Below, piece by piece: positions 1 to 14,361 of a stretch of 14,361 nucleotides of DNA. The notes under the pieces were generated by a model. That model saw only the letters and a list, made by a program, of their open reading frames with translations, was not told the origin of the DNA and did not search any database. How positions within the stretch are numbered: the stretch's first letter is position 1; every line of letters begins with the position of its first letter. The position numbers and the translations under genes were made by a program. This DNA is from an uncultured Clostridia bacterium (GTDB lineage: Bacteria; Bacillota; Clostridia; Lachnospirales; Lachnospiraceae), in contig CAMORF010000020.1 of NCBI GenBank assembly GCA_946623485.1, forward strand, positions 1 through 14,361, given 5' to 3'.

Positions 1-547
1 CAGAGGGGACAGGATAGGCGCCCACATAGCCGACGATGGCTTCTTCCGGGGATATGACCCTGTTGTCCACCATTTCCTGGAGCTTCAGTCCGGCCGCGAC
101 GCCGCTTACATATCGTGCCTGGTAGAATTCCCCGTTGAAGGTATGATAGTTGTCCGGATGGTCTGCCGGCGGATTCACCATATCGCTGATCTGGCAGATC
201 TGCATATCCGGATAGGAAGGCGCAAGCTCCGCAAAGCTTTCACTGTGACAGTTTGTGAAGATGATGTTGCATCCCTTGAGGGACATCTCCCGCAGCGTAT
301 CTTCAATCGCGTCATCCGGAACATTGTTTTTAGCCAGAATGTTGACGGAGTCCCGCAGTTCCTCGTGCAGCATGACCTGCGCACGGGCAAAATTGTAGGT
401 ATAGGGAGCACTTTCGTCGCTTTCATAGATGAAGCCGACTGTGATGCTGCTCATGGCGCCGCTGATATTCCGGGTGCGGCTGATCCCGAAAAACAAAGCC
501 AGGACTGCGAGGCATGTCAGGAAAGTGGCAATATATGCTCGTTTCAT
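1..547 (-). CDS. Bmp/PnrA-family solute-binding protein (nucleoside-binding type), partial
   Basis: Start ATG at 545-547; the gene continues past the left edge, leaving 182 residues. A hydrophobic N-terminal segment (about residues 5-22) is a signal peptide or uncleaved anchor. The Cys at residue 12 is preceded by Leu-Thr, which is a poor lipobox, so lipidation is doubtful. The mature part begins as a type I periplasmic-binding fold with ITVGFIY near residue 35, a central IIFTNCH stretch, then GEFYQARYVSGVAAGLKL and IVGYVGAYPVPS at the cut end. These last two blocks closely resemble the Bmp/PnrA (BMP) family, whose members bind nucleosides or similar ligands outside the cell for ABC importers. 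No permease or ATPase is visible, so it may act as a sensor partner. The start overlaps the stop of the HD-GYP gene (ATGA), preceded by GGGAGGTG, indicating translational coupling and co-transcription. Family call fairly sure; ligand not known. Confidence 0.8.
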   Translation of the reverse strand, partial: MKRAYIATFLTCLAVLALFFGISRTRNISGAMSSITVGFIYESDESAPYTYNFARAQVMLHEELRDSVNILAKNNVPDDAIEDTLREMSLKGCNIIFTNCHSESFAELAPSYPDMQICQISDMVNPPADHPDNYHTFNGEFYQARYVSGVAAGLKLQEMVDNRVISPEEAIVGYVGAYPVPS

Positions 548-3500
548 TTGGCACCTCCCTTCTCATTCTCAACATTCTTTTTAGCAGAGGCTGCTTCCGC
601 GGTATCCTTTGTGGCGGCGGTTGCTTCCTCGGCATCCTTCTTGCTGCCGGAATCTTGTCCGGCATCCTTCTTGCTGCCGGAATCTTGTTCCGCATCCTTC
701 CCGGATTCTGCCTTGGGCTGATCCGGGGAGGATGTTTCCTCTTTGCCGGCTGCCGTGCTCTGCCGCCTCGGGTAGAGCAGCTCCAGGTCGATGGTTCCTT
801 CCTCCAGGATATCCAGGAAGATATCTACAACCCTGGGATCAAACTGGGTGCCGCGTCCCTTTCTCAGCTCGTCCAGCACATACCCGATATCCATCTGATT
901 CCGGTAGATGCGGTTTGCGGTCATCGCGTCAAACGCGTCTGCAACACCGATAATCCTGCCGTACTGCGGGATCTCTTCCCCCTTGAGTCCCTGGGGGTAA
1001 CCGCGCCCGTCATAGCGCTCGTGATGGTACAGCGCGCCTTCCCGGATGTGCTCGATCAGGGTGAAGCCCTTCAGGATCTCCGCGCCTCGTGTCGTATGTG
1101 ATTTCATGATTGCGTATTCTTCGTTTGTCAGCCTGCTGGGTTTATTCAGAATATTGTCGGGAATCGCAATCTTGCCGATATCATGGAGCGCTGCAGCCTT
1201 GTGCAGGTTCTCACATTCCTTCTCGGAATAGCCCATCTTCCGGGCAATCATCACGGAATAATCCGCGACACGCTGGGAGTGCTGGCTGGTCCGTTCATCC
1301 TTGGCATCTACGGTATTGGCGATGGCTACGATTGTCTGGTTGCCCATCTTGATCTGCAGCTGCGCCCGCTCATATACACGGCGGAACCACAGCCCAAGCA
1401 GGAAGACAATGAAGAACATTGCGATTCCGATCACATATCCGATAAACCAGGGTTTGTCATAGATATCCTTTTGCTTGATGATCGGGTAGATCCGTTCCTC
1501 CAGGATCGTGGACTCGTCATTCGTGAAAACGGCGAGATGGAACCGGTAATTCCCCGATGGGACATTGGTGTATGTGATGCTTCCGAGGGTGCTCTGGGGA
1601 AGAAATGTCCATTGGGTATCAAAGCCTTCCAGGTAATAACCGACATTCGGATCCTGGATCGTGAAGTTGATGACCTCCGGGAACAGCTCGATCTTACGGA
1701 CGCTCCGGTCAACGTTGATCGGGGCGCTGCTTTCGACGCGGAAGGATTCCCCATCCAGATAGACAGTGGACAGGTTCATGCGGTACGCATGCGTTCCCTC
1801 GGAATACCGCTCGATATCCGCCAGGTAAACGCCGCTGTCACAGGACAGAAACAGATGCCCGTTTCCATCGTAGTAATTCCAGGAATTCGCGGTCAGGGAG
1901 CTGTGCAGGCCCTTCCTGGCATCCAGAAGGTCATAGGAGATGTTTGCAGCATCCGACAGGAGTTCCTCGCGGTCTACGACATAGATGCCTGAGCTGCCGG
2001 TGACAAACAGTGTTTCATCATCCTGGATCCAGACATCATAGTTGTTGAAATAGGGGAAATTGTTCAGCGGCCGGATGGCGTAGGACTGATCCATGTAACA
2101 CAGTCCGTTGCTGGTGACAAGAAAGACGCCAGCCCCTCCAACATCCAGGATTGTGCGCAGGATCACGCCTGAACTCAGCCCGTCCTCCCGCGTAAGCATG
2201 CGGGCCACTTCACCGTTCTGGATCAGCGCGATGCCGTCCCCGTCCGTGCCGGCGATAATCGTTCCGTCCGGCATCTCGGTTACGGTAAGGATCATGGAGT
2301 TGATCAGCCCGTCAGCATATCCGATGGTCTGCAGGATCTCATGATCCCGGATGAAGCTCATGCCGGTGTCCCCGGCGGCGGCAATGGTGCCGTCAGACAG
2401 CTGTGTCACAAGGCGGGCACGGTTTCCGAAGCTCCCGTTTGAGCTGTCATACAGAACCTGCTTCCCGTCCGGATCGATCTCCAGCAGTCCCTGCCCGTAG
2501 GTACAGATCCACAGGTGTTCCTGACTGTCTGCGAAAATACAGCGGATCCGGACTCCGTTCAGCTGTCGGGTCAGGCTGTTTTTGATCTCTTTGCGGAGCG
2601 ATCCATCGATGATGTCCAGCCCGGAATCTGTTCCGATGTAATAATTGCCCTGCCAGCAGGAAACAGCATTGACGACCTTTTCCTGCATGCCGCAGGTGCT
2701 GTATAGATCCTGGAACGGGGAGGGGGCCATCCTCAGCAGACCCAGGCGGGAGGAGGTAAACCAGAGATTGCCCTGGTAGTCCTTGAGCATCCGGTCGATG
2801 GAATTATTGAATGCGTTGACATTGATCAGGTGATACTGATGGCTGGGATCGATAAATGCGATCCCGTTTTCCGCAGAGAGGAAAACATCCCCGTTTTCCA
2901 GCGTATTAATGTCATTCAGGCTGTTCAGCCCCTCGCACTCCAGTACGGTGATATCATCGAAATATCCTTCCGAGATGTCATACACATGCACCCGTCCAAG
3001 CGAGGTACCCACCAGAAGATGTCCTTCCGGGCTAAAGCCGCAGCAGTTGATCTGTTCGCCGTCCGCGGGATAGCGCATCGAGCAAAGAATCTGTCCTGCC
3101 TTCAGCAGGAAGATCCGCCCGTCAGAAGTGACGGCGGCAACGTGGCCGTTCCCGTCAGCGGTCAGGTCATCGGCGTAGTTGATCTCCCAGAGGGAGGCAA
3201 CCTTTTTCAGGCCGCTGTTCAGGGACAGGATCTGCATGCTGCCGGTTGTCCCGATATAATAATATCCGTCAGAACTTTCGACGATAGCGCGGACGGAATC
3301 GGAGGGAAGCCCCCCGCTTTGGTCAATCACATTGACGATCTTCTCGTTGATCGAGATGGCGAGGCCATTGTCATTGGTGCCGATCCACAGGCGCCCTTCA
3401 TCGTCTGTGTACAGGCAGTTGACATTGCGGACAGAATCGTATTTGTCCATCCACTCAAATTCCTGGCCATTGTAGCGGTAAAGCCCTGCGTAGGTTCCGA

Positions 3501-4266
3501 TCCACAGGATTCCGTCATTGGTTTCGGCAATGTCATTTGCCTCCCCGCAGGGAAGGCCGTTGTCATTGCTGAAGACCGTCTGCACATAATCGCTGTAATC
3601 CGTGGCGGTAACCGTGGCAGCCAGCACCCTGGATCGGGTGAGGGCGGGCAGGGCAGGAAGGAGGAACAGCAGCAGAACAAAGCTTCCCGTGAGCATCCGC
3701 TCCATGGAAAAAAACGCCGCATGAGGGAGTACCTTCCGGAAGAGGCGGAAGACCAGGTAGATGATGACCAGAGTCAGAACCTTGTCCACAAAGTCCAGAT
3801 AGAATTCCCCGAGGATGCTTGCGATGATCTGCGGCCATTTCCATTCGAGGAACAGGTTGATTACACCGTCTCCCCAGACATTTCCGGTCATGCCGGAATG
3901 GAACAGGTAGTTCAGCGGAACGGAGATTGCCGTGGCCGCGACAGCGCACAGGACCCCGATGATCATGGCTCCCGGGAAGGTATCAAGGCTTTTCCGGTGA
4001 GACAGGACGCCCACAAGGAGCGCCAGGGATATGCTGGTGAACAGATAGCCCCAGTGCGCATGGAACAAAGCGCTGCAGATCAGGTTGCCGGTGATTCCCA
4101 CCATGCTGCCGCAGATGGGTCCGAGCACGTAAGCACTCCAAACGGTACCGAAGGAATCCAGCCAGAGAGGAAGGTCGAACCGGTATGTGATGGAACGTCC
4201 CAGGCAGTTTAGGCTGATGCACAGGAGAACCAGGATAATAATCAGGTAAGTCTTTTGTTTTTTCAC
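544..4266 (-). CDS. Membrane sensor: ECF-S-like head, double propeller (Reg_prop), Y_Y_Y, HD-GYP c-di-GMP phosphodiesterase
   Basis: 1240 residues from a GTG start (4264-4266) with TGAGGT six bases upstream. Residues 1-180 are hydrophobic and resemble ECF transporter S components (LPLWLDSFGT and LGPICGSMVGITGNL near 32-62); a further membrane segment lies at 192-211. Residues about 230-825 hold roughly 14 propeller repeats of the LWIGT..GLYRYN kind (e.g. near 254, 293, 542, 585, 669, 805), i.e. possibly two seven-bladed propellers. A Y_Y_Y-type domain follows (about 830-930), then a transmembrane helix at 938-961. The HD-GYP domain (about 970-1160) keeps H996, H1028-D1029 (LHDIGK), H1057, H1081-H1082, the GRGYP loop at 1087-1091 and D1110, so it should hydrolyse c-di-GMP. 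The C-terminus is a charged repeat tail. The sensory half matches the architecture of Bacteroides hybrid two-component sensors, but the output is a phosphodiesterase. It lies 111 bases after the solute-binding gene and overlaps the BMP gene. Confidence 0.9.
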   Translation of the reverse strand: MKKQKTYLIIILVLLCISLNCLGRSITYRFDLPLWLDSFGTVWSAYVLGPICGSMVGITGNLICSALFHAHWGYLFTSISLALLVGVLSHRKSLDTFPGAMIIGVLCAVAATAISVPLNYLFHSGMTGNVWGDGVINLFLEWKWPQIIASILGEFYLDFVDKVLTLVIIYLVFRLFRKVLPHAAFFSMERMLTGSFVLLLFLLPALPALTRSRVLAATVTATDYSDYVQTVFSNDNGLPCGEANDIAETNDGILWIGTYAGLYRYNGQEFEWMDKYDSVRNVNCLYTDDEGRLWIGTNDNGLAISINEKIVNVIDQSGGLPSDSVRAIVESSDGYYYIGTTGSMQILSLNSGLKKVASLWEINYADDLTADGNGHVAAVTSDGRIFLLKAGQILCSMRYPADGEQINCCGFSPEGHLLVGTSLGRVHVYDISEGYFDDITVLECEGLNSLNDINTLENGDVFLSAENGIAFIDPSHQYHLINVNAFNNSIDRMLKDYQGNLWFTSSRLGLLRMAPSPFQDLYSTCGMQEKVVNAVSCWQGNYYIGTDSGLDIIDGSLRKEIKNSLTRQLNGVRIRCIFADSQEHLWICTYGQGLLEIDPDGKQVLYDSSNGSFGNRARLVTQLSDGTIAAAGDTGMSFIRDHEILQTIGYADGLINSMILTVTEMPDGTIIAGTDGDGIALIQNGEVARMLTREDGLSSGVILRTILDVGGAGVFLVTSNGLCYMDQSYAIRPLNNFPYFNNYDVWIQDDETLFVTGSSGIYVVDREELLSDAANISYDLLDARKGLHSSLTANSWNYYDGNGHLFLSCDSGVYLADIERYSEGTHAYRMNLSTVYLDGESFRVESSAPINVDRSVRKIELFPEVINFTIQDPNVGYYLEGFDTQWTFLPQSTLGSITYTNVPSGNYRFHLAVFTNDESTILEERIYPIIKQKDIYDKPWFIGYVIGIAMFFIVFLLGLWFRRVYERAQLQIKMGNQTIVAIANTVDAKDERTSQHSQRVADYSVMIARKMGYSEKECENLHKAAALHDIGKIAIPDNILNKPSRLTNEEYAIMKSHTTRGAEILKGFTLIEHIREGALYHHERYDGRGYPQGLKGEEIPQYGRIIGVADAFDAMTANRIYRNQMDIGYVLDELRKGRGTQFDPRVVDIFLDILEEGTIDLELLYPRRQSTAAGKEETSSPDQPKAESGKDAEQDSGSKKDAGQDSGSKKDAEEATAATKDTAEAASAKKNVENEKGGAK
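577..696 (-). repeat. Decapeptide/30-base tandem repeat in the HD-GYP tail
   Basis: Residues 1191-1230 of the HD-GYP protein read as four in-frame decapeptides: DAEQDSGSKK, DAGQDSGSKK, DAEEATAATK, DTAEAASAKK. At the DNA level two 30-base copies (631-660 and 661-690) are nearly identical, and the remaining copies have diverged. The tail is hydrophilic and low in complexity, follows the catalytic domain, and is probably a disordered cytoplasmic extension. Copy number could vary between strains by slippage. Confidence 0.85.
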
Positions 4267-4377: not shown

Positions 4378-5448
4378 TTACAGCCCAAGCTCCGAAGCGC
4401 GGACTGCGGCTTCCTCATACCAAGCTTCGTACTGACCGGATTCCAGGACCTCGTCGATGACACCGTTGATAAAATACATCAGCTCCAGGTCATCCTTCGG
4501 CCCGGCGATGCGGTCTCCCTGAAATTGTTCTTCAAGGTTGAACATGACGTCCTCCATCAGCGTTAGGCCGCAGTCCGGATTGTTTTTGATATACAGCTGC
4601 GCGCTCTCAATATCGACGCCTGCAGCGTCTGCTGTCTGATTGCTGACCAGGTCGTAGACCTCCTGGATGGAGGGAACTCTTCGAAACTGGGAATAGTCTG
4701 TGATGTTCTGCGCCACCAGCAGTTCCTGGAGGGAACCCATCTGCACGGCAAGATCCTTTCCGGACAGGTCAGCGGGGGTTTTCAGGATGTCCGCGTCAGA
4801 CTCCCGGATTAAAAGGCCTGCCCCGGCTCCTTCAGAGGAGTAGTAGTAGCCCTTGGAGAGTTCCATGGAGGAGGCACGCCCCGGCGTATAGGAGAGAGCA
4901 GAGATGGCGAGGTCATATTCCCCACGTGCCATGGAAGAAAGAACCTCCGTGAAATCAAGGGGGACGATCTCAAGCGAAACCCCCATCTTTTCCGCGATCA
5001 GGCGGGCAAGCATCATATCCGCCCCGGCGTACTGATCCTGTCCTTCCAGATCGGGATCAATGAATTCCTGCGGGGCAAAATAAGGTTCTGTGACCACCCG
5101 GAGCACGCCGCGCTCGCGGATCAGGGACAGGCGCCCGTAGACATCCTCCGGGATTCCGCCGGAGATATCCATAGAATCCTCAACAAAATTCCACTTGTTT
5201 TCATGGTACCGGCTGTCTGCATTGCTGCCTGATGAATCCGTTCCGGCAAAGGTGCTGTTGGCTCCGACGGCCTGATTCTCTTCCTCAGTCTGTATCTGGG
5301 AAAGCTGCATCTCGGAAACGGGATCTGTTTCAGGCGCGGGATCAGAGGCGGAAATCATGGCATTGCCCTGCGCAAGCATCAGGGAAAAGGTGAGAAATGC
5401 TGCAGCCAGCGCATGCATGCTTCGGCCAAGTTTTTTTGATAGATTCAT
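4378..5448 (-). CDS. Secreted amino-acid-type solute-binding protein (SBP_bac_3 family), orphan
   Basis: 356 residues from ATG at 5446-5448, chosen because AGGGAGGA lies five bases upstream and the signal peptide starts there; longer in-frame extensions lack a start signal. Residues 1-30 form a signal peptide (basic MNLSKKLGR, hydrophobic 12-27) with no lipobox Cys. Residues 33-95 are a polar Ser/Glu/Asn-rich linker. The binding domain (about 105-350) has GVLRVVTEPYFAPQEF, the GADMMLARLIAEKMG helix, GEYDLAISALSYTPGR with R191, the position of the carboxylate-binding Arg in amino acid receptors, and DAAGVD ending at D279. This is the HisJ/GlnH-type fold that binds polar amino acids for ABC importers, but no permease or ATPase gene is adjacent. 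It is first in the leftward unit before the HD-GYP sensor and divergent from an APC-permease/c-di-GMP fusion, which suggests a sensory role. The ligand cannot be read from sequence. Confidence 0.88.
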   Translation of the reverse strand: MNLSKKLGRSMHALAAAFLTFSLMLAQGNAMISASDPAPETDPVSEMQLSQIQTEEENQAVGANSTFAGTDSSGSNADSRYHENKWNFVEDSMDISGGIPEDVYGRLSLIRERGVLRVVTEPYFAPQEFIDPDLEGQDQYAGADMMLARLIAEKMGVSLEIVPLDFTEVLSSMARGEYDLAISALSYTPGRASSMELSKGYYYSSEGAGAGLLIRESDADILKTPADLSGKDLAVQMGSLQELLVAQNITDYSQFRRVPSIQEVYDLVSNQTADAAGVDIESAQLYIKNNPDCGLTLMEDVMFNLEEQFQGDRIAGPKDDLELMYFINGVIDEVLESGQYEAWYEEAAVRASELGL

Positions 5449-5453
5449 GAAGT

Positions 5454-5461
5454 TCCTCCCT
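5454..5461 (-). promoter_or_regulatory. Strong ribosome binding site of the solute-binding protein gene
   Basis: On the minus strand AGGGAGGA ends five bases before the ATG at 5448. This decides the start against much longer upstream readings of the same frame. Confidence 0.8.
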
Positions 5462-5467
5462 GAGGAT

Positions 5468-5789: not shown

Positions 5790-8700
5790 ATGGGAGAAAA
5801 CAGGAAACTGGCAAGACATCTGTCGCCGGTCAGTGTGTGGGCGTTTGCGCTCGGGACCGCCGTCGGATGGGGTTCTTTGGTGGTCACAAGCAATACGTAT
5901 CTGGTTCAGGCAGGACCGTTGGGAACGACGCTGGGGCTGATCGTCGGAGCTGCTATCATGCTTCTGATTGGCTGGAACTATTCCTACATGATGCGATGCT
6001 ATCCGGAAGCCGGCGGCGCGTATGCATTTACCAGGGAAACCTTCGGCTACGACCAGGGATTTCTGACTGCCTGGTTTCTGATGGTGACTTATCTGGCGGT
6101 GCTGTGGGCGAATGCCACCTCGCTGCCTCTGTTCTCCAGGATCTTCCTGGGCGGGATCTTCCGGTTCGGGCGGATGTACGAGATCTTCGGTTATGATGTT
6201 TACATCGGGGAAGCGATCCTGTCCGCAGCGGCGCTTCTTGTGATCGGATTCCTCTGTATCCGTTTCAGCCATGTCTCCGTGCTTCTGATGACGATGCTGG
6301 GAGGCGTGTTTTCCATTGCGATCGCGGTCTGCTTCGTCTGCGCGATTGCGGGAGGCGGCAGCGCGCAGATGACGCCTGCATTTGTGCCGGAGGCAGCTGC
6401 TATTTCCCAGGTCGTGAAGATCGCGGTGATCTCCCCGTGGGCATTTATCGGGTTCGAAAGCATCTCCCACCTGACAGAGGAATTTGATTTTGAGCGCGCC
6501 AGGATCCGCCGTGTCGTGCTGATCTCCGTGGTCTCTACCACCGTCTTGTATATTCTGGTTACCCTGCTGTCCGTAACGGCATATCCGGAGCAGTATGGCA
6601 GCTGGCTGGAATATATCAGGGATCTGGACCAGCTGGAGGGGATCGAGGCGCTTCCACCGTTTTACGCGGCTTATCGTTACATGGGCGATGCCGGCATCTG
6701 GCTTTTGATGATGGCGCTGCTTGCGCTCGTGATCTCCAGCCTGATCGGAAACATGACGGCGCTCAGCAGACTGATCTATTCCATGGGAAAGGACCGGATC
6801 GTTCCGGACCGTTTCGCGAAACTGAACCGTTATTCGGTTCCGGGCAACGCGATCGGTCTGGTGGTGGCGGTTTCCTGCGTGATCCCGCTCGTGGGCCGGA
6901 CTGCGATCGGCTGGATCGTGGATGTCACGACCATCGGGGCAACGCTGGTTTACGGACTGGTCTCTGCTTCCTGCGCGCGGATGGCAGCGCGGTCAGGGAG
7001 CAAGCGGGAGAAGTGGACCGGTATCATCGGAACTCTTTTGATGATCTGCTTTGGTGTCTATATTCTGGTGCCCAACCTGGTGGCAAAGGGCTCCATGGCA
7101 AGAGAGACGTATTTCCTGTTCATCGTATGGTCAGTTCTGGGATTCATTTTCTTCCGGTACATTCTCAGCAAAGACCGGGAGAAGCGGTTTGGCAGTTCCA
7201 TTATCGTATGGGTTGCGCTGCTTTCCCTGGTACTGTTCATCGCGCTGATCTGGATGAGGCAGTCCATGATCGACGCAAATGATCAGATGCTGCTCAATGT
7301 CAGGGCGCACTATGAGGAGGAGGAAGAAGGCTCGGCCCGCCTGGAGGATGAACGGTATATCGAACAGCAGATGGATGAGATGGAGCAGACCAATAACCAG
7401 AGTATGATGATGACGATGGTTATGTTCGTGTTTGCGCTTGCCATTATGCTGACAAACCATTCCTATATGCAGCGCCGTTCCCGTGAGAGCGAACTTTTGG
7501 CCAATACCGACCCGATGACCGGGGTGAAGAACAAGCATGCATACCTGGTGCGGGAGCGGGAGCTTACGGTGGCGCTGAAGGAACAGCGTGTCCCTGATTT
7601 CGCGATTGTGGTCTGCGATGTCAATGGACTGAAAAAAATCAACGATACCTATGGGCACAAGGCAGGCGATGAATATATCCGCAGCGCCTGCAAGATGGTT
7701 TGCGAGATTTTCTCCCACAGCCCGGTTTACCGGATCGGCGGAGATGAGTTTGCCGTGATCCTGACGGGCAGGGATTATGATATGCGCAAGGAGCTGACGG
7801 CTTTGCTGCATGACCAGTCTGTCGACCATATCAAAAACGGCGGCGCGGTCATTTCCGGAGCGGTATCGGAATTCAGGCCTGAGACAGACACGGATGTCCA
7901 TGAGGTCTTCGAGCGCGCGGATGCCTTGATGTATGAGGAAAAACGGCTCCTGAAGAGCCTTGGCGCGGTGACGAGGGATGATGAAAGCGACGCGCAGGAA
8001 GCGGCACAGGCACAGGATCAGGGACTGTCGATCCTGAATTTGAGAAAGGATATCCTGATCGTAGAGGATCAGGTGATCAACCAGGAGCTGCTGGGAGCCG
8101 CGCTGGAGGAGGAATACGAGATCCTGTACGCTTCGGACGGCGACCAGGCACTGGAGATGATTCAGGAATACCGCGACGAGCTGGCGCTGGTGCTTCTGGA
8201 CCTGCAGATGCCGAAGAAAAATGGCATGGAGGTTCTGCGGATTGTGAAGGCGGATCCGTCGCTGAAGGATCTTCCGATCATCGTGCTGACTGCGGATCAG
8301 GATGCGGAGGTGGAATGCCTCAAGGCCGGGGCTGCGGATTTTATCCCGAAACCGTATCCGATGTGGGAGATCATCCAGGCCCGGGTCAACAAAGTCATCG
8401 AGCTGTCAGAGAACCGGGACCTGGTCCATTCGACAGAGCGCGACAGCGTGACCCGCCTGTTCAATACAGAGTATTTCATGCGTTATGTGAGGCTGCATGA
8501 CCAGCATTACCAGGAGAAGGTCATGGATGCCATCGTGCTTGACGTGAATCATTTCCATATGATCAATGAGCGCTATGGCAAGCAGTACGCGGACGGCGTT
8601 CTGAGGCGGATTGGCGAGCGTGTCAGGCAGGTGGCAAGGAAGATCGATGGCCTTGGCTGCAGGAGAGGCGCGGACACATTCCTGATTTATTGCCCCCACA

Positions 8701-10127
8701 GGGATGACTACAAAGAATTGCTGGAGAAGTTTTCCGTCGGCCTGTCCGGCGAGGATTCCTCGCAGGACCGGGTGCGCCTGCGGATGGGTGTCTATTCAAT
8801 GGTGGATAAGCACATCGACATTGAAAGACGTTTTGACCGCGCGAAGAATGCGGCTGATACGGTCAAGGGCAGCGTGTCCAATCCGATCGGCATCTATAAT
8901 GAGAAGATGCATGAGTCCGCGATCCTGCGGGAGCGGCTGGTGGAGGATTTCCGATCCTCGATCACGGAGGGGTGCTTTGACGTTTATTACCAGCCGAAGT
9001 TTGATATCCGGCCGGATAAACCGGTGCTTTCCAGCGCGGAAGCATTGGTGCGCTGGAACCATCCGGAGATGGGCCTGATCAGCCCGGGAGATTTCATCCC
9101 GCTTCTGGAGGAAAACGGCCTGATCCTGGAGCTGGACAAGTATGTGTGGCGTAAGACGGCGGCGCAGATCCGCGAATGGAAGGAGCATTTTGGCTACGCG
9201 GTGCCGGTTTCCGTCAATGTATCCAGGATTGACATGCTGATGCCGGATCTGAAGAGTATCTTTATGCAGATCCTGGAGGAGAACGGGCTGACCACCGAGG
9301 ATATTATCCTGGAGATTACGGAGTCCGCTTATACCGGAGACTCCGAGCAGGTCATTTCCACCGCAAGGGAACTGCGGGGGATGGGCATGGGCTTTAGGAT
9401 CGAGATGGACGATTTCGGAACCGGCTATTCCTCCCTGGGTATGCTGTCGAACCTTCCCATCGACGCGCTGAAGCTTGACATGACCTTTGTGAGGAGCGCG
9501 TTCGGCGAGAACAAGGATGTCCGGATGATCGAGCTCATCATTGACATCGCCTCATACCTCCATGTTCCGGTGGTGGCAGAGGGCGTTGAGACGGAGGAAC
9601 AGTATCGCGTGCTGAAGGCAATGGGATGCGACCTGGTACAGGGGTATTATTTCTCCAGGCCGGTTCCCAGCAAGGAGTTCTGCAGGTTCCTGGAAGAGAG
9701 AGGAGCCGAAGAGCCGGTTCCGGTCCAGAGGAGCGCGCGGACTTATATGAGTATCTCAGGTGCGCTTGCCGGGGAATATGAGCATATCTATTATGTGGAT
9801 ACGGTGACGGATTATTACCTGGAATTCGGACAGGGGCAGGGCGGAGAGCTGCAGATCCTCCCCGGCGGCAAGGATTTCTTCCGGGATGCCCTTGGCAGTC
9901 TGGTGGAGAGCGCGGCGGAACATGACCGCGGCAAGCTGCTGGAGACCTTGAATAAGGAAAACCTGATGAGCTGGCCGGGCAGGGAGGAAACCATCGTCGT
10001 GCCTTATCTGAGAAAGGATGGGACAAAACAGAGGCTTTACTGCCTGCAGACGATCCGGACCCGGGGCAGTGATGACCATCATGTCGTGATCGGCGTGCGG
10101 CCGGATCATGGAAGCGCAGACGAATGA
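5790..10127 (+). CDS. APC-type amino acid permease fused to GGDEF-REC-degenerate GGDEF-EAL-PAS-like (c-di-GMP enzyme)
   Basis: 1445 residues from ATG 5790 (AGAGGG five bases upstream). Residues 1-490 look like an APC-superfamily permease with about 13 membrane helices: GTAVGWGS (22-29), PEAGGAYAFTRETFG (72-86), SPWAFIGFESISHLTEEF (215-232). An acidic loop (489-536) and one more helix (537-555) follow. GGDEF domain 1 (565-728) has an intact GGDEF at 650-654 with D610; no RxxD inhibitory site precedes it. A receiver (752-872) has D760, phosphoacceptor D804, T834 and K854. GGDEF domain 2 is degenerate, GADTF at 960-964. The EAL domain (1046-1300) keeps E1084, N1143, E1175, D1207-D1208, K1228, E1264 and Q1284. 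Residues 1315-1440 look PAS-like. It probably both makes and degrades c-di-GMP, controlled by a transporter-like membrane part; whether it still transports is unknown. The hybrid kinase gene follows after 29 bases. Confidence 0.9.
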   Translation: MGENRKLARHLSPVSVWAFALGTAVGWGSLVVTSNTYLVQAGPLGTTLGLIVGAAIMLLIGWNYSYMMRCYPEAGGAYAFTRETFGYDQGFLTAWFLMVTYLAVLWANATSLPLFSRIFLGGIFRFGRMYEIFGYDVYIGEAILSAAALLVIGFLCIRFSHVSVLLMTMLGGVFSIAIAVCFVCAIAGGGSAQMTPAFVPEAAAISQVVKIAVISPWAFIGFESISHLTEEFDFERARIRRVVLISVVSTTVLYILVTLLSVTAYPEQYGSWLEYIRDLDQLEGIEALPPFYAAYRYMGDAGIWLLMMALLALVISSLIGNMTALSRLIYSMGKDRIVPDRFAKLNRYSVPGNAIGLVVAVSCVIPLVGRTAIGWIVDVTTIGATLVYGLVSASCARMAARSGSKREKWTGIIGTLLMICFGVYILVPNLVAKGSMARETYFLFIVWSVLGFIFFRYILSKDREKRFGSSIIVWVALLSLVLFIALIWMRQSMIDANDQMLLNVRAHYEEEEEGSARLEDERYIEQQMDEMEQTNNQSMMMTMVMFVFALAIMLTNHSYMQRRSRESELLANTDPMTGVKNKHAYLVRERELTVALKEQRVPDFAIVVCDVNGLKKINDTYGHKAGDEYIRSACKMVCEIFSHSPVYRIGGDEFAVILTGRDYDMRKELTALLHDQSVDHIKNGGAVISGAVSEFRPETDTDVHEVFERADALMYEEKRLLKSLGAVTRDDESDAQEAAQAQDQGLSILNLRKDILIVEDQVINQELLGAALEEEYEILYASDGDQALEMIQEYRDELALVLLDLQMPKKNGMEVLRIVKADPSLKDLPIIVLTADQDAEVECLKAGAADFIPKPYPMWEIIQARVNKVIELSENRDLVHSTERDSVTRLFNTEYFMRYVRLHDQHYQEKVMDAIVLDVNHFHMINERYGKQYADGVLRRIGERVRQVARKIDGLGCRRGADTFLIYCPHRDDYKELLEKFSVGLSGEDSSQDRVRLRMGVYSMVDKHIDIERRFDRAKNAADTVKGSVSNPIGIYNEKMHESAILRERLVEDFRSSITEGCFDVYYQPKFDIRPDKPVLSSAEALVRWNHPEMGLISPGDFIPLLEENGLILELDKYVWRKTAAQIREWKEHFGYAVPVSVNVSRIDMLMPDLKSIFMQILEENGLTTEDIILEITESAYTGDSEQVISTARELRGMGMGFRIEMDDFGTGYSSLGMLSNLPIDALKLDMTFVRSAFGENKDVRMIELIIDIASYLHVPVVAEGVETEEQYRVLKAMGCDLVQGYYFSRPVPSKEFCRFLEERGAEEPVPVQRSARTYMSISGALAGEYEHIYYVDTVTDYYLEFGQGQGGELQILPGGKDFFRDALGSLVESAAEHDRGKLLETLNKENLMSWPGREETIVVPYLRKDGTKQRLYCLQTIRTRGSDDHHVVIGVRPDHGSADE

Positions 10128-10156
10128 GCCAAAGAGACTGACGTGGGGTGGGCAAC

Positions 10157-12751
10157 ATGAAAAAAGAGTTAAAGCTGATCATTGCCGGCTTATGTACGAT
10201 TCTTGTATCGATCGGAGTTGTATTCTTTTTTCTGTACCGCTTTATGGAGGCGCAGACAGAGAAGGATATCAGGGAGATCGGCAGGGTTTTTCTGGAAGAG
10301 AAGGCGCGTCAGGAGGCAAACCGCTTTGAAGCGATCAAGTCGATCCGGTTTTCCCAGATGGATTCCATGAAGGAAAGCCTGGATGAAGCCGGCGATGAGT
10401 TGGACGCGAATCTGATCCGCCAGGCGCTTGCTTATGCTGCCGAGTTCCAGGATTTATCGAACTGTTCCCTGATCAGCGCCTCCGGCGAACAGGAAACGAT
10501 CTACGGGGATCCCATTGTCAGGCTCGGGGATGAAAGCTTTCTGACAGACAGCCTTGCGAAGAAGAAGGAAAAGATCATCACGGGCGGATGGAGTGACAAA
10601 GAGCAGCTGATTATCTATGCCTGCTCCCTTTCCGTTCCGATGCTGAACGGGGAGAAAAGCATCGGGCTTCTATGGTGCAAGCCCATGTCCTTTTTTGCCC
10701 AGAGCATGAATCTGGATGATCCGGATTCCCTGGTGCGGTTCCATCTGATCCGGCGGGATTCCAGCTTTGTGGTGGAGGGAGAACACACGGCGGAAGAAAC
10801 CTACGATGATGTTGTGCTGGCGCATGTGACGCCGGAAGGCATGACGGCAGAGGAATTCGTCGAGAAGCTGCATCAGACAATTGCGGAAAACGGGACATTT
10901 ACGGTGCATACGCGTTACGTGGATGAAGCGGAAGGGATCAATATCCGCAGGAGCGTCTATGCGATGCCGCTGCCGGATTCCAACTGGTACCTGCTGTCGA
11001 TCCTTCCCTATGGCGTGCTGGATGTTTCCATTGCTGACATGGGGCAGGCGAGAATGAGAGGTATGCTGACGGCACTGGCGATTCTGATGGTCATGCTCCT
11101 GGTGGTTTTCTTCCTGTATATGCGGATGACCAGGCGCCAGGTCAGCAGGATCGAGGCGGCCAAGGCAGAAGCGGAGGAGGCGAAGGAAGCGGCGGAAGCG
11201 GCAAACAGGGCAAAAAGCGATTTTCTGTCGAATATGAGCCATGATATCCGCACGCCCATGAATGCCATCGTCGGCATGACGCAGATTGCGTCGGAGCATA
11301 TTGAAGACCAGGAACGGGTCAAGGATTGCCTGAAAAAAATAACCCTGTCATCCCATCAGCTTCTGGGACTGATCAATGACATTCTGGATATGTCCAAGAT
11401 CGAGAGCGGGAAGATGACGCTGAAGATGGAAGCGGTTTCCCTGAAGCAGACCATGGAAACCATGTGCGAGATCGTGCGTCCCCAGATCCGGAGCAACCGT
11501 CAGTCTTTCGATATTATGATCCATCAGATTCTGGCGGAGGAGGTATACTGCGACAGCGTCCGGCTGAATCAGGTCTTGCTGAATTTCCTCTCCAACGCGA
11601 TGAAGTTTACGCCGCAGGGAGGGTCGATCCAGATCGGGCTGTGGCAGGAACCATCCCCCAAGGGAGATAAGTTCGTCAGAACGTATCTGTCTGTCAAAGA
11701 TACCGGAATCGGGATGTCGGAGGAATTCCGCGAAAAGCTGTTTGTGGCCTTTGAGCGGGAGGACAGCCGCAGGGTACAGAAAACCCAGGGCACCGGGCTG
11801 GGGATGTCCATCACCAAATACATCGTGGATGCCATGGGCGGCGAGATTGCGGTGGAATCCGCGCCGGGGGCGGGCAGTACGTTCCAGGTAACGGTGGATC
11901 TTGAAAAGGTTCCTTCGGATGCCGCAAAGATGCAGCTTCCTGACTGGCGGATCCTGGTGGTGGATGACAATGAAGAGGTGTGCGCGGCTGCGGAATTGTC
12001 CCTGCAGGAACTCGGGACAAGGCCTGTGACATGCAGAAGCGGGGAAGCGGCCGTGAAACTGGTATCCGAGGCCAGGCAGCAAGGAGAAGACTTCTTTGCC
12101 GTGTTGATTGACTATAAGCTTGACGGGATGAATGGCGTCCAGACTGCGGTGAAGATCCGGGAGATTGCGGGCGGTGAGATTCCCATCCGGATCATCTCTG
12201 CCTATGACTGGTCGGAGATCGAAGCCGAGGCGTCCAGGGCGGGAATCACCGGCTTTATCGCAAAGCCGCTCTTCAAATCGACCTTGTACTACGAGCTGAG
12301 CAAGTATGTCGGGGAGCGGAAGGATGACGTCCCCCAGGAGAGCGCAAAGAAGAAAAATGATATCTCCGGGATGAGGATCCTTCTTGCGGAGGACAATGAC
12401 CTGAACGCCGAGATCGCGACCATGATCCTGGAGGAATGCGGGTGTGAAGTGGAACATGCCCAGGATGGCCAGGCGGCGGTGTCGATGTTCACGGAATCAT
12501 CTCCCGGCTATTATGACGTGGTTTTGATGGACCTGCGGATGCCGAATCTGAATGGGATCGAGGCAACACAGAAGATCCGCGCCATGGACAGAGATGACGC
12601 CGCAAGGATCCCGATCATCGCGATGACTGCGGATGCTTTTGCGGAGGATGCCCAGAGATGCCGGGACGCAGGGATGAATGCGCATCTCGCAAAACCGATT
12701 GATGTAGACCAGCTCACCTGGACGTTGGTGCATCTTGTGAGGAATCAGTGA
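10157..12751 (+). CDS. Hybrid sensor histidine kinase with two receiver domains
   Basis: 864 residues from ATG 10157, with GGGGTG six bases upstream; a GTG nine bases earlier is less likely. Membrane helices at about 8-27 and 304-322 enclose a 275-residue extracytoplasmic sensor, probably Cache-like. An Ala/Glu-rich coiled coil (326-352) takes the place of a HAMP domain. The kinase core has phosphoacceptor H362 in SHDIRTPMNAI, N-box NQVLLNFLSNAMKF (471-484), DTGIGM (515-520) and GTGLGM (545-550). Receiver 1 (about 597-718) has D652 and K703; receiver 2 (about 739-860) has E745-D746, D792, T824 and K846. No HPt domain follows, so phosphate must pass to a separate HPt protein, or the receivers act internally. 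Co-transcribed with the permease-GGDEF-EAL fusion, whose lone receiver domain makes it a plausible functional partner. No DNA-binding output domain is present. The signal is unknown. Confidence 0.92.
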   Translation: MKKELKLIIAGLCTILVSIGVVFFFLYRFMEAQTEKDIREIGRVFLEEKARQEANRFEAIKSIRFSQMDSMKESLDEAGDELDANLIRQALAYAAEFQDLSNCSLISASGEQETIYGDPIVRLGDESFLTDSLAKKKEKIITGGWSDKEQLIIYACSLSVPMLNGEKSIGLLWCKPMSFFAQSMNLDDPDSLVRFHLIRRDSSFVVEGEHTAEETYDDVVLAHVTPEGMTAEEFVEKLHQTIAENGTFTVHTRYVDEAEGINIRRSVYAMPLPDSNWYLLSILPYGVLDVSIADMGQARMRGMLTALAILMVMLLVVFFLYMRMTRRQVSRIEAAKAEAEEAKEAAEAANRAKSDFLSNMSHDIRTPMNAIVGMTQIASEHIEDQERVKDCLKKITLSSHQLLGLINDILDMSKIESGKMTLKMEAVSLKQTMETMCEIVRPQIRSNRQSFDIMIHQILAEEVYCDSVRLNQVLLNFLSNAMKFTPQGGSIQIGLWQEPSPKGDKFVRTYLSVKDTGIGMSEEFREKLFVAFEREDSRRVQKTQGTGLGMSITKYIVDAMGGEIAVESAPGAGSTFQVTVDLEKVPSDAAKMQLPDWRILVVDDNEEVCAAAELSLQELGTRPVTCRSGEAAVKLVSEARQQGEDFFAVLIDYKLDGMNGVQTAVKIREIAGGEIPIRIISAYDWSEIEAEASRAGITGFIAKPLFKSTLYYELSKYVGERKDDVPQESAKKKNDISGMRILLAEDNDLNAEIATMILEECGCEVEHAQDGQAAVSMFTESSPGYYDVVLMDLRMPNLNGIEATQKIRAMDRDDAARIPIIAMTADAFAEDAQRCRDAGMNAHLAKPIDVDQLTWTLVHLVRNQ

Positions 12752-13000: not shown

Positions 13001-14361
13001 ATGAAAAAACGTGTAACACTATGGCTGACAGTGGCTTTGAGCTTCGTGCTGGCAGGCTCTGCCATGGCGGAAGATGCGCCGGAAGCGCAGACGGAGGCCG
13101 TGGAAGCAGCGCAGACCGAGGCTTACGAAGAAGAAGAGATATTTGCGGACTGGAACCAGGATGCTCCGGCATTGCAGACGCTGATTGATTACGTGGAGAC
13201 TGTGACGGATGAGTCCTCGGAAGACTACATTCCTCCGGTGGACAGGATCGCCGTGTTTGATATGGATGGAACCATCTGCGGAGAATTATATCCGACCTAT
13301 CTGGAGTACTATGCGCTGGCATGGCGCATCCTGAAGGATCCGTCGATCGAGCCGGATGCCGAGATGCTGGCTATCGGACGCGAGATCCGGGATCACGCGC
13401 TGGACAAGTCTTTCCGGGAGGACATGCCGATGCAGCATGCAATCCAGGCTGCCCGTGCTTATTCCGGGATGACACTGAATGAGTTTTCTGATTTCATCAC
13501 TGAGATCCTGCTGCGTGATGTGGATGGATTTGAGGGCATGACCTACGGAGAAGCGCTTTACTCTCCGATTCTGGAAGTGATCGAATATCTGGCGGACAAT
13601 GACTTCAAGGTCTATATTGTCAGCGGAAGCGATCGTTTCCTGTGCAGGACGCTGTTTGAAGGCCATGTCGATATTCCGGAAGAGCGGATCATCGGTATGG
13701 ATGTCGCAGTGGAAGCGACACACCAGGGCGATGTGGATGGCCTGGATTATGTTTATTCGGCAGACGATGAAGTGGTTCGTACCGACCGTCTGCTGATCAA
13801 GAACCTGAAGATGAACAAGGTTTGCCAGATCGTCAGGGAAATCGGCCGCCAGCCGGTGCTTTCCTTCGGAAACAGCAGCGGCGATGTGAGCATGCATAAC
13901 TTTACGATTCACAATAACAAGTATAAGAGCGCGGCGTTCATGCTGGTCGCGGATGATTCCGAGCGTGACTACGGGGATCCCGAAAAGACAGAGCCGCTCA
14001 AGGAGAAATGGGCAGAGAGCGGATACCAGGTGATCTCCATGCGGGACGACTTCCGTACCATCTACGGGGATGATGTCGTGAAGACCGGAACCTTCCGCTG
14101 GATGGATGAGCTTGCAGATGACAGAGGAGAAGGCTCCCCGGTATTCAAGGGAGCGCACTACGCTGAGAAAGCGGCAGAGGATCAGGCTTCTGCAGACGCA
14201 GCCCAGGCACCTGCAGCGGAGGCATCCGCAGATGCGGCCCAGGCACCTGCGGCAGAAGCATCCGCAGACACAGCCCAGGCACCTGCGGCAGAAGCTCCAG
14301 CGGATGCGGCCCAGGCTCCCGCGGCGGAACCAGCCCAGGCAGCAGACGGAGAAGATGCCGA
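13001..14361 (+). CDS. Secreted HAD-superfamily phosphatase-like protein with Ala/Pro-rich tail, partial
   Basis: ATG at 13001 with AGGGAGAGG just upstream; 453 residues are visible and the frame is still open at the right edge. Residues 1-23 are a signal peptide (MKKR, hydrophobic core, AMA before Glu24). An acidic stretch (24-50) leads into a HAD fold: motif I DMDGT with D87 and D89, a helical cap inserted after it (about 95-180), motif II IVSGS with S208, a motif III Lys (K267 or K270), and motif IV FGNSSGD with D295. All catalytic positions are present, so it should be an active extracytoplasmic Mg-dependent phosphohydrolase. The substrate is unknown; the layout with a helical cap resembles secreted phosphatases such as phosphorylcholine phosphatase, but I cannot assign it. 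From residue 398 the protein becomes a repetitive Ala/Pro/Glu tail, perhaps a wall-spanning or disordered region. It likely has its own promoter. Confidence 0.85.
   Translation, partial: MKKRVTLWLTVALSFVLAGSAMAEDAPEAQTEAVEAAQTEAYEEEEIFADWNQDAPALQTLIDYVETVTDESSEDYIPPVDRIAVFDMDGTICGELYPTYLEYYALAWRILKDPSIEPDAEMLAIGREIRDHALDKSFREDMPMQHAIQAARAYSGMTLNEFSDFITEILLRDVDGFEGMTYGEALYSPILEVIEYLADNDFKVYIVSGSDRFLCRTLFEGHVDIPEERIIGMDVAVEATHQGDVDGLDYVYSADDEVVRTDRLLIKNLKMNKVCQIVREIGRQPVLSFGNSSGDVSMHNFTIHNNKYKSAAFMLVADDSERDYGDPEKTEPLKEKWAESGYQVISMRDDFRTIYGDDVVKTGTFRWMDELADDRGEGSPVFKGAHYAEKAAEDQASADAAQAPAAEASADAAQAPAAEASADTAQAPAAEAPADAAQAPAAEPAQAADGEDA
14192..14335 (+). repeat. 36-base tandem repeat encoding ADAAQAPAAEAS units
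   Basis: Four in-frame units start at 14192, 14228, 14264 and 14300, each encoding a variant of ADAAQAPAAEAS; the fourth degenerates into a partial AAEPAQA run. Copies are similar in DNA as well as protein, implying recent expansion. The repeat lies in the C-terminal tail of the secreted HAD protein and may continue beyond the window. Confidence 0.88.

Follow-up and report, generated by a model that had tools for sequence, protein, structure and literature searches.

CbrA, CrbS, and the SLC5-STAC-diguanylate cyclase proteins hold a transporter fold and a kinase or cyclase in one chain (PMC7096432, PMC13022988). The gene described here lies at 5790..10127 (+) of a window of 14,361 nucleotides, the whole stretch of DNA that was analyzed, from an uncultured Clostridia bacterium of the Lachnospiraceae (contig CAMORF010000020.1). 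It encodes a protein of 1,445 amino acids, in which an APC permease domain is followed by a coupler and by GGDEF, receiver (REC), degenerate GGDEF, EAL, and PAS-like domains. Unlike the CbrA type, this protein has an APC domain (PF13520) instead of SLC5, a predicted two-helix membrane coupler occupies the place of STAC, and the output holds domains for both synthesis and degradation of cyclic di-GMP (c-di-GMP). The fusion protein is probably a membrane receptor whose permease fold binds an amino acid or a close relative and thereby switches c-di-GMP synthesis.

The ammonium sensor kinase Ks-Amt5 likewise uses a nutrient transporter fold, which has lost transport, as its sensor, and differs in its Amt fold, trimeric state, and histidine kinase output (PMC5764959). 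S-component/5TMR domains also place a transporter-related membrane fold, that of ECF S-components, on GGDEF, EAL, and kinase outputs (PMC11109136). In the same 2024 paper, transporter-fold receptors are called oddities that had been seen in eukaryotes alone; its definition excluded STAC-linked cases such as CbrA, and the paper then added the S-component class. AdiC and GkApcT have the fold and several gate positions in common with the window APC domain; in contrast, they carry no output domain, and site residues differ (W293 to N321, Y93 to T100, and S26 to W27). In yeast, Ssy1 is an amino-acid permease sensor and Gap1 is reportedly an amino-acid permease that signals, both being eukaryotic and not known to carry a fused enzyme.

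The original prediction knew of no characterized case of such an arrangement. This stands for the papers listed by searches of the open-licence literature for such fusions and for bacterial transceptors, the accessible parts of which describe no APC-GGDEF, APC-EAL, APC-HD-GYP, or APC-kinase protein, most subscription papers lying outside this scope. It does not stand for the kind itself, as the SLC5-STAC-diguanylate cyclase proteins mentioned in PMC7096432 already join a transporter fold to such a cyclase. In the family described here, which numbers well above 100 bacterial proteins, a common amino-acid transporter fold is attached to a c-di-GMP enzyme, a kinase, or an HD-GYP domain. The family offers a direct test bed for reading out the LeuT-type binding cycle as a signal and is a candidate connection between amino-acid supply and c-di-GMP, which commonly governs attachment or motility, in gut bacteria.

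Domain layout, recurrence, and swapped outputs

The single-frame fusion of an APC permease to c-di-GMP modules, claimed by the original prediction, was borne out by a Pfam domain search. The APC-fold domain (residues 11-461; 5820..7172, +) matches AA_permease_2 and AA_permease at 104.7 bits (cut-off 27) and 86.8 bits (cut-off 24.6), both over the curated cut-offs, and no match to the SSS (SLC5) family was found in the window protein at an E-value of 0.1. The predicted model of the protein has an APC/LeuT-type fold, in which transmembrane helices 1 and 6 (TM1 and TM6) are broken at residues 25-26 and 220-221. The coupler (residues 472-572; 7203..7505, +) is predicted to be a membrane hairpin, consisting of a membrane helix, a loop of variable length that would face outside, and a second membrane span that continues as one helix into the GGDEF domain. 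Residues 472-565 matched no Pfam family over its cut-off, the presence of a STAC model in Pfam being unchecked.

The output domains named earlier come next in the chain. GGDEF domain 1 (residues 571-719; 7500..7946, +) has an intact motif and lacks RxxD at the usual place of the inhibition site. It is followed by the receiver domain (residues 755-864; 8052..8381, +; Pfam), by the degenerate GGDEF domain 2, in which RGADTF replaces GGDEF (about residues 871-1045; 8400..8924, +), and by the EAL domain with retained catalytic motifs (residues 1052-1291; 8943..9662, +). The C-terminal PAS-like domain (about residues 1320-1441; 9747..10112, +) is a weak fold match, for which Foldseek gave nothing under 1e-3 in the window protein. 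The cyclase motif and the metal and nucleotide residues (D610, N618, D619, and GGDEF 650-654) do not vary over 71 aligned rows, and the window protein contains EAL, NxS, ExTE, DDFG, KxD, EGVE, and QGY, the motifs of EAL-type phosphodiesterases. Among 148 long forms, crude patterns found the GGDEF motif in 146 (exactly one GG(D/E)EF in 145, two in one, and none in the other two), EAL in 145, NxS in 145, ExTE in 147, DDFG in 147, and EGVE in 146. RxxD was not found five residues upstream of GG(D/E)EF in any of 188 motif-bearing proteins.

The architecture recurs in other genomes, where the original prediction had proposed to look for it. Within length limits that left out the APC-GGDEF forms of 735 amino acids, 1,761 matches were obtained from a large collection of proteins. 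The 120 matches listed all have one set of five Pfam families in common; one of them appears to belong to the window itself and the other 119 are 55-86% identical to it, which gives at least 119 further clusters with this architecture. From species genomes, 80 named loci were collected, some in records not labeled as metagenome-assembled genomes (MAGs), such as AC2029, AD3010, NK3B98, and Ruminococcus sp. YE71; in one genome without a MAG label (AC2029, locus L006), the fusion sits on a contig of 3.86 Mb. The groups named in the titles of these loci include Bacillota, Actinomycetota of the Coriobacteriia type, Treponema, and Chloroflexota, together with one short Desulfovibrio contig, and the animals named in the titles, where one is given, are mostly ruminants. 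The Desulfovibrio label belongs to a 5 kb contig (L053), and a binning error is possible there. By manual count, 19 of the 299 family genomes and 4 of the 398 phylum genomes have matches reaching into the coupler, the window's own genome included.

Across 77 of the 80 loci, the same membrane module is joined to outputs of five types. These are GGDEF (42), GGDEF-REC-GGDEF*-EAL (27, with the last domain present or absent and one truncated by the contig end), PAS-GGDEF (3), HD-GYP (3), and HisKA-HATPase-REC (2), as assigned by local phmmer with pieces of the window genome's own proteins and by eye, with Pfam run on one protein per type. The remaining three loci (L021, L051, and L078) have broken frames of the same fusion, through sequencing error or decay, and were left out of the tree and the output counts. 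In the window's genome (390 contigs, 73% complete), all three AA_permease matches lie inside fused frames, namely the window gene, an APC-GGDEF gene, and an APC-kinase gene; a stand-alone permease may be missing from the assembly because the genome is only 73% complete. Across 19 genomes of the genus, a manual count placed 18 of 23 above-cut-off matches in frames longer than 700 amino acids and 5 in stand-alone genes.

In a tree of 100 APC domains (3 own, 77 from the loci, and 20 others), the 88 fused rows form one clade with a value of 99 in the SH-like approximate likelihood ratio test (SH-aLRT), and the nearest outsiders are stand-alone permeases. The tree is quick, has long branches, and was made without bootstrap. 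Kinase forms branch first, the c-di-GMP forms are nested inside the fused clade, and two kinase forms are the sister of the c-di-GMP forms within a branch at support 100. HD-GYP output requires two changes on the tree (L104 was left out of the all-groups change count). As one membrane domain serves five signaling outputs, it is likely a nutrient sensor. In a separate APC lineage on the tree, from six genomes of the same family (L094-L098 and L109), the permease shares one chain of 882-907 amino acids with an iron-containing alcohol dehydrogenase (confirmed by Pfam in L095).

Putative binding site and coupler spacing

The proximal, middle, and distal gate residues of AdiC are described in PMC6199258 and PMC4970712. 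The proximal W202 and distal E208 correspond to W217 and E223, each present in 88 of 88 fused rows, and the TM1 G-x-G site motif reads GWG in all 88. N101, which we take to act at the site, and Y365 correspond to N108 and Y388 (87/88 each). Eleven putative pocket positions, derived from GkApcT (PMC5803215), have a mean entropy of 0.43 in 78 c-di-GMP forms, compared with 1.40 across all helix positions; only 13 of 100,000 random position sets were as low. Entropy is lowest in TM1, TM3, TM6, and TM10.

Changes of Lys191 in TM5 of GkApcT stopped or reduced transport, while binding was kept (PMC5803215). This lysine is absent from the fused forms, and its loss was considered as a sign of a non-transporting sensor. 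The argument was dropped, because stand-alone relatives lack the lysine too and AdiC has proline there, so its absence is uninformative.

Between N556, where the last membrane helix ends, and D574, where GGDEF starts, the distance is 18 residues in 117 of 192 rows and 25 in 74, exactly one heptad apart. The remaining row (L011) is mis-sliced and reads 27, and of 194 proteins two that lack a GG(D/E)EF motif were left out; the rows include the window protein twice (P0001 and P0002), and some loci may be doubled under protein ids. In contrast, the outside loop of the coupler hairpin has 12 lengths among 71 rows. By eye, the H-box stands at one and the same distance from the last membrane helix in 19 of 19 kinase forms and likewise in four further kinase genes (L112 and L113, two each), and the two origins of the HD-GYP forms have linkers of 31 and 38 residues, again 7 apart. 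These spacings suggest that the linker is a register-locked signaling helix. The kinase genes of L112 and L113 (808-836 amino acids) stand in tandem pairs, and their kinase ends look degenerate by eye and have no receiver.

Proposed mechanism and alternative explanations

The sequences themselves show that the fusion exists and recurs, that outputs are swapped, that the putative pocket is conserved, and that linker lengths are fixed, and these features point to a receptor. A ligand from outside, probably an amino acid or a close relative, would close the W217 gate, after which TM6 and TM1 would shift and the coupler helices, perhaps paired as a dimeric coiled coil, would turn or slide. The geometry of the GGDEF dimer would then alter, and c-di-GMP would rise or fall. 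The EAL domain would be active, and the receiver and PAS-like domains would act as extra inputs; the receiver may be phosphorylated, perhaps by the hybrid kinase whose gene lies 20 bases downstream. The module may work without net transport. More tentatively, and slightly less likely than not, this APC fold may be a dedicated bacterial plug-in amino-acid sensor that has lost net transport, occurs in rumen and gut members of Bacillota, Actinomycetota, Chloroflexota, and Spirochaetota, and acts on kinase, cyclase, and HD-GYP outputs via a heptad-registered helix.

Several observations weigh against the receptor. W217 and N108 alone are no receptor mark, because stand-alone relatives (n = 6) share them (5/6 and 6/6), with D instead of E at 223 in 5 of 6. 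Among 78 c-di-GMP forms, the middle gate W293 of AdiC is replaced by N321 in 70 and Y93 by T100 in 66; therefore, the site differs from that of AdiC, and the pocket map itself was built on 15-19% identity. The linker rows are not independent, and on the tree the step of 7 residues took place once (branch support 87). Length is likewise invariant for most other intervals of the module, so the weight of the linker rests on the contrast with the loop and on the step of 7. One kinase form (L105) has Arg in place of His. By crude patterns, QGYxFSxP of the EAL domain is found in only 132 of 148 long forms and the receiver Asp in only 102, by which phosphorylation of the receiver in all members is weakly suggested. 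Finally, the SLC5 domain of CbrA is dispensable for signaling (PMC7096432).

The strongest alternative, though a rather unlikely one, is a working importer with a built-in signal, in which transport flux rather than binding sets c-di-GMP, as in a CbrA-like transceptor. CbrA binds and transports histidine (PMC7096432), the predicted model has a complete APC fold, the gate positions W217 and E223 are retained, and close stand-alone permeases are known (L090 and L091). In contrast, the middle gate residue of AdiC and one distal gate residue are replaced in most members, and the TM5 lysine required for full transport in GkApcT is absent, though this is not decisive. The original prediction of a transceptor, in which substrate binding or transport sets the c-di-GMP level, is consistent with the fold, the conserved putative site, the swapped outputs, and the fixed linker; however, a pure receptor fits at least equally well.

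Control from inside to outside, in which nucleotide sensed by the c-di-GMP domains would regulate the permease, has a parallel in KimA, a transporter of the APC superfamily that is regulated by c-di-AMP. It is improbable here, given that 145-147 of 148 long forms retain the GGDEF 1 and EAL motifs (132 for QGYxFSxP) and that the same module also bears histidine kinases and HD-GYP domains. An APC part serving as a mere membrane anchor or dimerizer without a ligand is just as improbable; any membrane domain could tether a cyclase, whereas the conserved positions here are those of the putative pocket, with TM1, TM3, TM6, and TM10 lowest in entropy. Two genes joined by assembly or annotation, as the fragmented genome might allow, are ruled out by the recurrence of the fusion in all the listed matches and on the long contig of L006.

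Neighboring genes and further observations

A hybrid histidine kinase gene (HisKA-HATPase-REC-REC; 10148..12751, +) lies downstream of the fusion gene and is a possible partner. A divergent gene for a solute-binding protein of family 3 (4378..5463, -; Pfam), with a neighbor match also in L119 and L127, is possibly linked to the fusion in function. Five window neighbors were compared with the 80 loci by tblastn at 1e-20, the flanks being short in many loci. The hybrid kinase matched in 19 loci, always through its generic core, the window HD-GYP protein matched in 6, three of them being the APC-HD-GYP genes themselves, and the remaining neighbors had no match in these loci.

In the genus, 3 of 6 long-form loci have an adjoining solute-binding protein gene (the contig of L128 stops 0.7 kb upstream). 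In 7 of 9 loci with the APC-kinase gene, the same strand carries an EAL gene upstream of it (L004 has just 0.8 kb upstream), and therefore the kinase form may also feed c-di-GMP. In L117, this upstream gene is REC-GGDEF-EAL and is preceded by a hybrid kinase. A D-Ala-D-Ala dipeptidase gene follows the kinase form in one genome (G002); the remaining loci searched, several of them stopping shortly past the gene, gave no homologue, and none of the neighbor genes examined for clues names the ligand. L117 also contains a cluster in which three APC sensors, each with a different output, lie within 12.2 kb (L117:3768-15969), where a D-Ala-D-Ala dipeptidase and a CoA-transferase lie between two of the sensors.

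The window holds two further genes of note. The protein at 544-4266 (-) has an N-terminal membrane domain that looks S-component-like by eye, a Reg_prop beta-propeller, Y_Y_Y, and HD_5 (HD-GYP type). It may be another case of a c-di-GMP enzyme with a transporter-like domain, next to the first one. The gene at 13001-14359 (+) encodes a HAD-type hydrolase with a repeated Ala-rich tail, ASADAAQAPAAE, and runs past the window end.
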